DNA from: Patescibacteria group bacterium
GTDB taxonomy: Bacteria; Patescibacteriota; Patescibacteriia; UBA2591; JAQWAS01
Assembly (NCBI GenBank): GCA_028707495.1
Contig: JAQWAS010000001.1
Span: 1-48,381, forward strand
DNA length: 48,381 bases
Direction of reading: 5' to 3'
Shown: in pieces, positions 3,667 to 48,381 of the stretch
How positions within the stretch are numbered: the first letter of the stretch is position 1
Layout: every line of letters starts with the position of its first letter
Program-made: the position numbers and the translations under genes
The notes under the pieces: generated by a model
What the model was told of the DNA's origin: nothing
Databases searched by the model: none
The model's input: only the letters and a program-made list of their open reading frames with translations

Positions 3667-4230
3667 ATGAACGATCAACGAATCATTAAACAAATTCAAC
3701 GTGGTAATGTTCGAGCTTTTGCAGCTATCTACGATAAATATATTGAAAAAATTTATCGTTTTGTTTTTTTAAAAGTTTCCACCAAAGAAAACGCAGAAGA
3801 TTTAACCAGTCAGATTTTTATTAAAACGTTGAATTATTTAATTGAAAAAACAGACAAAGAAATTGAAAATTTGAACGCTTTCTTATATCAAGTGGCACGC
3901 AACACGATCGCTGATTTTTATCGCCAACAAGGCAGGGCTCAAGAAATTCAATCAATCGATCAAGAGGAATTAGAAAGTTTACCTGACAAAGAAGGTCAAG
4001 GTTTAGAAAAAAAAGTTATTTTAAACTTAGACATTTTACAAGTTAAAAAAGCTTTACAAAAAATTAACCCAGATTATCAAGAAGCGATTATACTTTATTA
4101 CTTAGAAGAATTTTCTGTTGGTGAAATTAGCCAAATTGTAAATCGTACTCCAGGCGCAACACGTCAAATCATTCACCGCGGATTGGAATCATTAAGACAA
4201 ATTTTAAATTCAAATGAAGAACATAATTAA
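3667..4230 (+). CDS. RNA polymerase sigma-70 factor, ECF-like
   Basis: A 187-residue sigma factor. Region 2 is visible at residues 12-80: FAAIYDKYIEKIYRFVFLKV, then AEDLTSQIFIKTL and FLYQVARNTIADFYR, the -10 recognition helix. Region 4 is at 125-180: ALQKINPDYQEAIILYYLEE, then VGEISQIVNRTPGATRQIIHRGL. I choose ATG 3667 over 3616 because the extra 17 residues come from a repeat end. The stop overlaps the next gene by 17 bases, so the two are translationally coupled. It probably directs surface or stress genes, held inactive by the DUF5667 partner; targets are unknown. Confidence 0.9.
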   Translation: MNDQRIIKQIQRGNVRAFAAIYDKYIEKIYRFVFLKVSTKENAEDLTSQIFIKTLNYLIEKTDKEIENLNAFLYQVARNTIADFYRQQGRAQEIQSIDQEELESLPDKEGQGLEKKVILNLDILQVKKALQKINPDYQEAIILYYLEEFSVGEISQIVNRTPGATRQIIHRGLESLRQILNSNEEHN

Positions 4231-5284
4231 ACAATTGAAAAAACTCCAAGACATTCAACCTGATCAAAATTGGCAAAAATCTTTACGTAATGATATAATT
4301 ATGCAAGCTAAAGATTTGGAACCACAAGAGCAGGGCTTTTTCTTTTTCAATTGGACTAGAGAAGTTTTTAGAGATTGGGAAGTCTTACCACATTTAGTTA
4401 GAGTGACCGCCAGCGTTATGGCGATTTTAATTGTAGTTTTGAGTGGTTCGGTTTTTACAGTGAGTGCCTCAAAAGATTCTTTGCCGGGTGATACTTTTTA
4501 TTCGGTTAAATTAGCTTCAGAAAAAATTCAATTATCTCTAGCTCAGGAAGAAGATAAAATCGAATTAGGTTTAAAATTCGCTGGCCGAAGATTAGATGAA
4601 GCCAATCAATTATTAACCAAAGATCCGAATCGAGTTTCTGAGTCTTTATCAGCTTTTGAAAAAAATATTCAAGACGCCAAATTGAGTTTAGAAAAAGCTC
4701 ATCAAGTCGCCAACCAAACACAAGATAAGGTTAAAATTGTAGAAGTGGCTAAGATGGCTAGTCAAGAAGTTGAAAATTATGAAAAAACTTTAAACAAATT
4801 TTTGGTTGAAGATGAGACGGTGAGTGTGGCTATGAACGACGAAATCAATCAAAAAATTGTCAGTTCGTTGGATTCAACTAGTCAGGTGAATTTAAAATCT
4901 TTAGAAATTTTAATTGCGAATATTGATGAAAATAAATTAAATGGTGATAAGCAACAAATTTTAGATAAAATTAGTCAAGAATTAGTTAAGCTTGAAGCTA
5001 AGAATTTAGATGAAAAATTAAACGTCTTAGACGTGCAACAAGATTTAAATACAGCCAAAGAATTAATCGCTGAAGAAAATTTAGCTGGAGCTTTAGAAAA
5101 AGTTCAGCAAACCAAAATTAAAATAGACCAAGCGACAACTGGTATTGATTCGGTTGTTGGCGATGGTCAACAAATAGAAGAACCGATCATTGAAAAACCA
5201 ATTATAGTTCAACCCAAGCCAGTCGATATTGAAGAGATTAAAATCGACTCAGATGAGGTTTTGGGTGGAATTAAAAAAGAATAA
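4214..5284 (+). CDS. DUF5667-type membrane protein, putative anti-sigma factor
   Basis: A 356-residue protein. Residues 1-55 are cytoplasmic and probably bind the sigma factor. One transmembrane segment lies near 62-85 (VTASVMAILIVVLSGSVFTV). The external part begins with SLPGDTFYSVKLASEKIQL, the signature of DUF5667, followed by long alpha-helical, probably coiled-coil segments to about 310. The tail is rich in proline and acidic residues (IEEPIIEKPIIVQPKP). Overlap with the sigma gene and this layout are what is known for sigma/anti-sigma pairs in Patescibacteria; binding itself is inferred. Confidence 0.85.
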   Translation: MKNIIKQLKKLQDIQPDQNWQKSLRNDIIMQAKDLEPQEQGFFFFNWTREVFRDWEVLPHLVRVTASVMAILIVVLSGSVFTVSASKDSLPGDTFYSVKLASEKIQLSLAQEEDKIELGLKFAGRRLDEANQLLTKDPNRVSESLSAFEKNIQDAKLSLEKAHQVANQTQDKVKIVEVAKMASQEVENYEKTLNKFLVEDETVSVAMNDEINQKIVSSLDSTSQVNLKSLEILIANIDENKLNGDKQQILDKISQELVKLEAKNLDEKLNVLDVQQDLNTAKELIAEENLAGALEKVQQTKIKIDQATTGIDSVVGDGQQIEEPIIEKPIIVQPKPVDIEEIKIDSDEVLGGIKKE

Positions 5285-46693: not shown

Positions 46694-46767
46694 TCGGGGG
46701 TCGTCTAATGGTAGGACAGCAGGTTCTGGTCCTGTCAATGGGGGTTCGATTCCCTCCCTCCGAGCCA
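46694..46767 (+). tRNA. tRNA-Gln (CTG)
   Basis: Acceptor TCGGGGG/CCTCCGA, D-stem GTCT/GGAC, anticodon stem GCAGG/CCTGT around TTCTGGT (anticodon CTG), T-stem GGGGG/CCCTC. 74 nt including an encoded CCA, unlike the tRNA pair at 43919-44065. Confidence 0.95.
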
Positions 46768-46777
46768 AGTATGTACG

Positions 46778-46803
46778 AACAGAGGCTAAAACCTCTGTTT
46801 TTG
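46778..46803 (+). terminator. Terminator of tRNA-Gln
   Basis: AACAGAGG (46778-46785) pairs with CCTCTGTT (46792-46799), followed by TTT. Confidence 0.88.
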
Positions 46804-46824
46804 CTTTGTTTAAAGGTTATCCAC

Positions 46825-46852
46825 TTGTGTTATAATAAATTTGAGTTATAAT
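46825..46852 (+). promoter_or_regulatory. Promoter for the SAM riboswitch transcript
   Basis: TTGTGT at 46825-46830 and TATAAT at 46847-46852, 16 bases apart, just upstream of the aptamer. Confidence 0.45.
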
Positions 46853-46886
46853 ATAAAAGTAGCAACTATACAATTGAAAAAATTAA

Positions 46887-46993
46887 TTATCAAGAGTGCA
46901 AAGTAGAGACATGGCTCCGTAACTTTGCCAGCAACCCTTGAAGGTGACACTTCAAGAAGGTGCTAAATCCATGCCTTAAGGTAGGAAAGATAA
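46887..46993 (+). promoter_or_regulatory. SAM-I riboswitch aptamer
   Basis: Conserved S-box features in order: TATCAAGAG; P2 GCAAAGT/ACTTTGC enclosing GAGACATGGCTCCGTAAC; CAGCAACC; P3 CTTGAAG/CTTCAAG; AAGGTGCTAAATCC, the invariant J3/4 block; P4 GCCTT/AAGGT; closing P1 TTATC/GATAA. It binds S-adenosylmethionine. GGAAAGAT (46984-46991) overlaps the P1 3' strand and can pair with ATCTTTCC (47021-47028) as an antiterminator. Confidence 0.93.
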
Positions 46994-47020
46994 AAGGTCG
47001 TTTTTATATTTATATAAAAT

Positions 47021-47049
47021 ATCTTTCCTGGTTTAGGGAAAGATTTTTT
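47021..47049 (+). terminator. SAM-controlled intrinsic terminator
   Basis: ATCTTTCC (47021-47028) pairs with GGAAAGAT (47037-47044), followed by TTTTTT. The first arm is also the target of the antiterminator strand in the aptamer. High SAM should therefore end transcription before the gene at 47062. Confidence 0.92.
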
Positions 47050-47061
47050 AATTTAAAATAT

Positions 47062-47325
47062 ATGAAAAATTTAAACAACAAACAAAAGAACTCGCCAAAG
47101 ATTTGGAATTTTGAAACATTTTTGAAGAGGTCTCAAGAGGTCCTAGGGAAACATGGCATATCGGTTACGGACGGGATGACGGACTCACAATCTACGACAG
47201 AATCGCAGATAAGCGTAGTATTTCGTCCGTTTGGTCGAGACGGGGGAAATTTTAACAAACCACAAGAATCAGACAATATCAAGAGGTTGGAGAATGAATC
47301 GTCGAATAATAATAATAAAGATTAA
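47062..47325 (+). CDS. Small protein under SAM riboswitch control, unknown
   Basis: An 87-residue hydrophilic protein. I start at ATG 47062, 13 bases after the terminator T run; an upstream in-frame start at 46960 lies inside the aptamer and is unlikely. It is basic at the N terminus (KNLNNKQKNSPKIWNFETFLKRSQEVLG), Ser/Thr/Gln-rich in the middle (GMTDSQSTTESQIS), and ends in an Asn run. No domain, membrane segment or methionine-pathway motif is seen. It could also be a minor or non-coding part, with the true target further downstream at 47423. Confidence 0.5.
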   Translation: MKNLNNKQKNSPKIWNFETFLKRSQEVLGKHGISVTDGMTDSQSTTESQISVVFRPFGRDGGNFNKPQESDNIKRLENESSNNNNKD

Positions 47326-47422: not shown

Positions 47423-48381
47423 ATGAATAATATGGCAAAGATTAATTTATATGAAAATAAAATAAATGAAATTGTCGAAAGGATAATTTTAGATGCGCGT
47501 CTTTGTGTAAAAGAAGAAAACAAGAAATTGGAAGAAAAGTTTAAAAGAGATAGTGCTGAGTTTCAAGAGAAATATTTAGATATTTTATTTCAGTTTGTAT
47601 ATTTTTTTATAGATCAGTCGATAAGATTAGCAATATCAATGGACCAAAATTCCGAAAAATTTTTACCCGATGAATTGATTTCTCGTGTTGGTAAAAAATT
47701 AATTGATATGGTATTTACAGAATCAAGCGAAGAATATAAATTAAAAATTTTAGACATTTTTAATGATAAGCTTGATATTGCTATTAATAATTATAGTAAA
47801 TGCACAACATTTATGGTGAGCGACAAAGAAGATTTTGCTTACGCGGATAAATGCGCAGCGGAGATGACCAGTAAAGGATTGGTGAATTGTTTACAAGACG
47901 AAATAGCTAAAATTTTAGATGATCCGGTTGGTCTTCTGTTTTGGGAGCATATACGTATCGTAATGCAGATTTTAAATGTGTCTGAATATAAAGATTTAAT
48001 TTCTAATATATTGGAATCATTTAATCTTATAAAAACAATATTGAATGCAACAATCCCGTCAAAGGTTTCCCAATGTTTAGGTTCTTTTTCTGGTTTTATC
48101 AATAATAAATATTCTAATGATCAAATAAAGGGGTTTGATGAATTTAATGTTATTTTTAACGAAATTGAACTATTTTTTATTTATATTTTTTCTGTAATTC
48201 TTAGATTTGAGCTAAATTTTAGAGAAGAGACCACTTTTGTAATAATTAATGCTTTGGTTGATAAAATGAGTTCTTATTCTACTAGAGTTTTTTTGTCGGT
48301 TTTTAAGAAACCCAATGATTTACAAAAGGAAAAAAAATTTGAAAGTGAACTGATAGATCAATTCAAAAATAATTTTGCTAT
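47423..48381 (+). CDS. Unknown soluble protein, cut by the window end
   Basis: The frame opens at ATG 47423 (MNNMAKINLYENKINEIVER) and runs without a stop for at least 319 codons to the window end. It is alpha-helical and rich in Lys, Glu, Ile and Phe, with a few Cys (RLCV, YSKCTTF, DKCAAEM, VSQCLG). No signal peptide, no clear membrane segment and no motif I recognise. It follows the small gene by 97 bases with no terminator between, so it may be the real target of the SAM riboswitch. Confidence 0.7.
   Translation, partial: MNNMAKINLYENKINEIVERIILDARLCVKEENKKLEEKFKRDSAEFQEKYLDILFQFVYFFIDQSIRLAISMDQNSEKFLPDELISRVGKKLIDMVFTESSEEYKLKILDIFNDKLDIAINNYSKCTTFMVSDKEDFAYADKCAAEMTSKGLVNCLQDEIAKILDDPVGLLFWEHIRIVMQILNVSEYKDLISNILESFNLIKTILNATIPSKVSQCLGSFSGFINNKYSNDQIKGFDEFNVIFNEIELFFIYIFSVILRFELNFREETTFVIINALVDKMSSYSTRVFLSVFKKPNDLQKEKKFESELIDQFKNNFA

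Follow-up and report, generated by a model that had tools for sequence, protein, structure and literature searches.

The 48,381-nucleotide stretch of DNA analyzed here (the window) belongs to a Parcubacterium that uses S-adenosylmethionine (SAM) without a detectable SAM synthetase, and it probably carries a working SAM-I attenuator, with its own promoter, in front of an 87-residue orphan gene (probability of about 0.6). The switch, as predicted from the sequence, is real and canonical, and its position is unusual. The features that bear on this reading, including those beyond the end of the window on the same contig, are as follows.

46694..46767, + strand: tRNA-Gln (CTG), the upstream neighbor
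46809..46852, + strand: promoter-like region, TTTAAA-16-TATAAT at 46809-46836, its -10 preceded by TG, with another TATAAT at 46847-46852
46870..46880, + strand: ACAATTGAAAA box, one mismatch from ACAATTGAATA, the box before many SAM-I aptamers of the class
46884..46996, + strand: SAM-I (S-box) aptamer; P1, 46887-46891 with 46989-46993; pseudoknot, 46910/46969
46974..47038, + strand: antiterminator; ~46974-46992 pairs with ~47020-47038, excluding P1 and the terminator
47021..47050, + strand: intrinsic terminator, ATCTTTCC..GGGAAAGAT plus T-run
47062..47325, + strand: 87-aa orphan open reading frame (ORF), the first gene behind the switch and its probable target
47423..48381 in the window, + strand: 393-aa helical orphan ORF, 319 codons inside the window, ending at contig position 48604
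48652-49086 (outside the window), + strand: 145-aa ORF, next after the 393-aa ORF
49153-49692 (outside the window), + strand: NYN protein
49875-50744 (outside the window): S49 peptidase

A SAM-I aptamer had been proposed from the sequence alone, with a covariance-model search as the check, and the search bore the proposal out. In a cmscan of the window, RF00162 (SAM-I) matched positions 46884-46996 of the forward strand over its full length (1-108) with 49.1 bits, above the curated gathering threshold of 44.4 bits (E = 2.4e-8, computed for 48 kb, both strands, and 4227 families). It is the single SAM-I in a genome-wide search of the 857-kb assembly (G000; 19 contigs; completeness, 100%). The conserved SAM-I core (GCAACC, AAGGUGCUAA, and GAAAGAU) was read from the RF00162 alignment, and the pseudoknot between the P2 loop and J3-4 is perfect, with 5 pairs between CAUGG (46910) and CCAUG (46969). 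The same alignment has A instead of G at kink-turn position 1b and U at 2n, so that P2 lacks the canonical tandem G-A form, a usual SAM-I sub-feature that the Rfam model does not require. This defect was considered as proof of decay and dropped because, among the leaders listed, the 1b change is shared with the metK leader of G272 and both switches of G059. At 49 bits, the window aptamer scores below most class members (most over-cutoff matches, 50 to 77).

The sequence-only reading had described the aptamer, antiterminator, and terminator as a textbook SAM-off arrangement; all three are present and are mutually exclusive in the folds. In the unconstrained fold of the leader, GGAAAGAU is paired with AUCUUUCC in the antiterminator (-49.2 kcal/mol; z = -3.97; 1 of 200 shuffles equally stable). 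Forcing P1 and the terminator hairpin (47021-47044, followed by TTTTTT) gave an OFF state of -45.7 kcal/mol, a difference of 3.5 kcal/mol between the alternating structures before ligand, and forcing P2a, P2b, and P4 besides gave -41.4 kcal/mol, both OFF values being those before pseudoknot and ligand. The platform is that of a predicted SAM-off transcription switch. When SAM is scarce, the antiterminator would form and the 87-aa orphan gene would be transcribed; when SAM is plentiful, its binding in the cell would let P1 capture the shared strand, the terminator would form, and transcription would stop.

A terminator-like hairpin (46777-46800) lies between tRNA-Gln and the switch, followed by the putative promoter. 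Promoter-like sites of this kind are matches to the consensus only, 31 having been found in the 4.5 kb scanned versus 25.9 expected by shuffling. Integration at tRNA-Gln was also considered and rejected, as no copy of at least 15 bases of the tRNA gene was found elsewhere in contig positions 1-80000. The box just upstream of the aptamer recurs across the class: ACAATTGAATA precedes the aptamer exactly in 11 of 74 leaders, in 19 with up to one mismatch, and in 31 with up to two. Mononucleotide shuffling predicts 0.01, 0.2, and 2.9, respectively, and this comparison favors the box because it was picked after the leaders had been seen. Its start is mostly 11 to 16 bases 5' of the aptamer. A looser form had 17 matches in 360 kb of DNA, mostly chosen around switches, and a simple pattern places an aptamer after 8 of these, whereas reading places one after 11, with one locus double-counted. 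The leader thus resembles the SAM-I/S-box family (RF00162) in its aptamer, pseudoknot, and intrinsic-terminator platform but differs from the family norm in the orphan gene behind the switch, the metK-less genome, and the class-specific box upstream. Control of methionine or SAM genes, which is usual for SAM-I though not obligatory, is not seen here; the ORFs downstream are orphans.

No match to the bacterial SAM synthetase MetK (PF02773) was found in the genome; the family is present in 28 of 58 relatives and in 222 of 380 class genomes. The archaeal-type SAM synthetase (PF01941) had no match in any of 58 genomes, this one included, and 4 archaeal controls were positive. Neither type of SAM synthetase is detectable, yet a SAM-using methyltransferase, RsmH (PF01795), is present, and the organism therefore probably imports SAM. 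A metK gene shortly downstream, which had been named beforehand as evidence against an unusual target, was looked for and is absent both within 1.6 kb and from the genome. No standard methionine transporter was evident on reading the five ORFs at 47062-50744. Matches to PF02773 were missing from 158 of the 380 class genomes, some of which are incomplete, and SAM auxotrophy seems, from these searches, to be common in the class.

How Patescibacteria without metK obtain SAM is not settled in the literature searched. According to the portions of PMC5615194 available, Rickettsia imports SAM through EamA, and in most of its species metK has become a pseudogene. One EamA protein is encoded in the Parcubacterium genome, so that both organisms, as far as those portions describe Rickettsia, use SAM without synthesizing it and have EamA; unlike the Parcubacterium, Rickettsia is not mentioned there as having a SAM riboswitch. 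By analogy, this EamA protein, which is not adjacent to the switch, may serve as a lead to the importer.

The gene next to the switch had been described as an orphan, and the searches agreed. The 87-aa protein had no match in Pfam, PHROG, NCBIfam, or PADLOC, and homologue searches returned nothing below an E value of 0.05 in 57 relatives and none in viral contigs. Its codon score (-0.09 per codon) falls just under the 1st percentile (-0.016) of in-frame controls, which were 87-codon pieces of 39 long ORFs, and exceeds the 99th percentile (-0.26) of out-of-frame pieces. Third-position GC is 0.44 versus 0.19 to 0.35 in the five neighboring genes measured. These statistics suggest that the ORF is probably coding but atypical. 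Structure prediction from the single sequence (mean pLDDT, 64.6) was too poor for a fold search. The product may serve in SAM acquisition or sparing.

The genes farther downstream appear to have a different history. The sequence past 48381 completes the second ORF to 393 aa, with its end at position 48604 of the contig (C1). No homologue of this protein other than itself was found in 57 relatives, in viral contigs, or in genome contigs (close relatives only), and a single-sequence prediction of its first 319 residues (mean pLDDT, 44.2) was too poor for a fold search. An AT-rich block at 47250-49990 (GC, 0.19 to 0.33 in 250-base steps) holds the genes for the 393-aa, 145-aa, and NYN proteins. 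Among 379 other class genomes, the 145-aa protein (L002:8652-9086 in G000) had one close match, 79% identical, in a genome of a different order (L119:7293-7754 in G187), and two further class matches at E values of 5e-4 to 6e-4; none was found in viral contigs or plasmids. The 79% identity and the lack of any similar protein in the other members of the order compared suggest a recent transfer of this gene, and the later genes were for that reason not taken as the natural target of the switch. The AT-rich block and the close match in G187 likewise set these genes apart from the switch unit. Most likely, the 393-aa and 145-aa genes are separate, recently acquired cargo, and the long second protein is probably not what the switch regulates.

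It is nevertheless conceivable, if rather improbable, that the switch drives a longer operon (87-393-145-NYN), a mobile defense-like cassette that would be turned on when SAM is low. The genes are all on the same strand, and no terminator was found between the 87-aa ORF and the later genes (47325-49692), so that read-through is possible. Behind a switch of G059 (contig C3), the nearest ORF called on the same strand, at a distance of 750 nt, encodes a similar NYN protein. The G187 copy of the 145-aa gene, in another gene order, adjoins a gene matching the PADLOC Orf5/HEC-06 models (E = 6e-54), which we take to be GmrSD/DUF262-like, and the 145-aa protein might by this association be a mobile defense accessory. 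However, there is no SAM-I near the G187 copy, the four proteins of the Parcubacterium had no strong match among defense-system models (only the NYN protein, at 3e-6, to HEC-09), and ahead of the 393-aa gene lie 97 nt of AT-rich sequence that may contain promoter sites.

The remaining context comes from a census of SAM-I in the class. RF00162 matched 104 of 380 genomes at an E value of ≤0.001 and 81 at the curated cutoff. Below-cutoff switches being excluded, the census comprised 93 switches: 47 before metK (16 called from coordinates, the others from tblastn matches no more than 700 nt away), 11 before members of a recurrent three-part cluster that we named D1, D2, and D3 (assigned within 1600 nt of the switch), and 35 before other genes, the window's switch included. 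The cluster emerged from an all-against-all comparison of downstream ORFs, and D3 carries a CxxC-CxC pattern. Members lie behind switches in ten class genomes (at loci L065, L057, L054, L047, L046, L072, L027, L084, L066, L052, and L055).

Models of D1 and D2 matched 10 of 380 genomes, and in 9 of these an over-cutoff SAM-I lies ahead of a member; in the exception (G310), SAM-I was absent even at an E value of 0.5. The hypergeometric chance that at least 9 of the 10 would merely hold a switch is 5e-6, a figure that ignores relatedness and overstates the true excess because the models were built from switch-linked proteins. In the 13 switch-bearing genomes without metK, SAM-I precedes non-metK genes, which are of the D family in 7; counting D3 (G336), the family occurs in 7 of these 13 versus 3 of 68 switch genomes with metK (Fisher P = 4.7e-5, in a test that ignores relatedness and with 5 of the 7 metK-less genomes <95% complete). 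In Candidatus Wolfebacteria GWA1_42_9 (L112:2854-4369), SAM-I (2854-2979), metK (to 3965), and D2 (3986-4369) stand in an operon-like row with 20 bases between metK and D2, and this row ties the D2 family to SAM. No SAM-I over the cutoff accompanies a D2 relative in a record titled Candidatus Binatus soli. Searches with the D family in Pfam, NCBIfam, PDB, and phages gave nothing over a curated cutoff or below an E value of 0.001 (D3 versus zf-tcix, at 0.0012, is under the zf-tcix cutoff), and no D2 relatives were found in viral contigs.

The window leader is 68 to 73% identical to leaders of metK and D-family genes elsewhere in the class; the D-family leaders in question (G240, G131, G125, and G336) likewise precede short proteins, often in metK-less genomes. 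Membership of the 87-aa protein in the D family, suggested by eye (KIW/KIY and ESQISVVF/ESYVTVAF), was rejected because shuffles did as well in mean Smith-Waterman score (282 of 400 as good for D1 and 275 of 400 for D2), and the same was true of the 145-aa protein (376 of 400 and 225 of 400). Three proteins of the Parcubacterium tested against D1, D2, and D3 HMMs had no match. By these comparisons, the window's own genes are outside the D family. The idea of a role in SAM supply is strengthened indirectly because switches of the class precede the D family, once directly behind metK.

The main rival to a working switch is a relic, in which the leader once ran a metK or D-family gene, now lost, and a chance or decaying frame stands behind it. 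Ranked by similarity, the third leader is that of metK in G014, a genome of the same order (69.7% identity over 145 nt), in which metK still lies behind the leader, whereas in the Parcubacterium it is neither downstream nor elsewhere. This organism is the sole member of its family among the genomes compared; its class relatives include records named Candidatus Parcubacteria (L111, with the D2 gene of G221 contig C5) and Candidatus Wolfebacteria, which supports the proposed placement in Patescibacteria. The weak coding statistics of the 87-aa ORF, its lack of homologues, the lower aptamer score, and the altered kink-turn also fit a relic. Decay would be expected to erode the aptamer, antiterminator, terminator, and upstream box, but all are intact, and no remnant of metK or a D-family gene was found within 1600 nt; a relic is accordingly judged unlikely. 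Far less credible are a spurious match and a switch that senses a different ligand, to which the non-canonical kink-turn and the absence of a SAM gene downstream might point: the match is over the curated cutoff, its core, pseudoknot, and platform are intact, and homologous leaders precede metK.

On the preferred reading of a working SAM-I attenuator before the 87-aa gene, a broader suggestion can be offered tentatively, as less likely than its negation: SAM-auxotrophic Patescibacteria may maintain a set of short, rapidly evolving proteins under SAM-off control (D1, D2, and D3; here the 87-aa protein) to obtain, retain, or spare SAM, with the switch reporting host SAM supply rather than the cell's own synthesis. 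If imported SAM is sensed, such a switch would be a natural reporter of the supply of a host-derived metabolite in an uncultivated lineage. The pattern across the class carries more weight than this one locus, and a SAM-sensing switch in a metK-less genome flags candidate genes, D1/D2/D3 first and the 87-aa orphan second. No report of a SAM riboswitch in Patescibacteria was found in the literature searched, coverage of which was partial, so that one may be published. In the portions available, PMC11665869 mentions riboswitches only as tools, PMC4508563 treats only a riboflavin switch, and PMC3766115 reports SAM switches from eight phyla besides Firmicutes and predicts that the novel genes under their control act in cysteine/methionine metabolism or transport.

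First genes of other kinds behind class switches, by Pfam, include methylenetetrahydrofolate reductase in G216 (also found behind the below-cutoff switch of G039) and a response regulator in G169. Among L080, L045, and L076, the G099 switch precedes a methyltransferase and then a homocysteine S-methyltransferase, the G098 switch has a C5 DNA methylase first, and the G366 switch has a weak match to SAM hydroxide adenosyltransferase, below the Pfam cutoff. A D2 protein of G164 (contig C23), a genome of this class, is 100% identical to one in a record titled Lysobacteraceae (L110), which is probably a mislabeled or mixed metagenome-assembled genome. Identical SAM-I aptamers with different genes behind them lie at the extreme ends of two G055 contigs (L046:13-118 and L047:13-118), and this leader seems to be a dispersed repeat. 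Switches followed by small orphan ORFs stand upstream of conserved genes shared by three genomes each, RNase Y-like/YmdB-like in L050, L060, and L090 and TyrS-like in L059, L062, and L091 (names by reading), the G036 and G304 switches in these sets being below the cutoff. Tandem SAM-I aptamers precede a shared zinc-ribbon-like family in G033 (L048:330-634) and G221 (L053:491-796).
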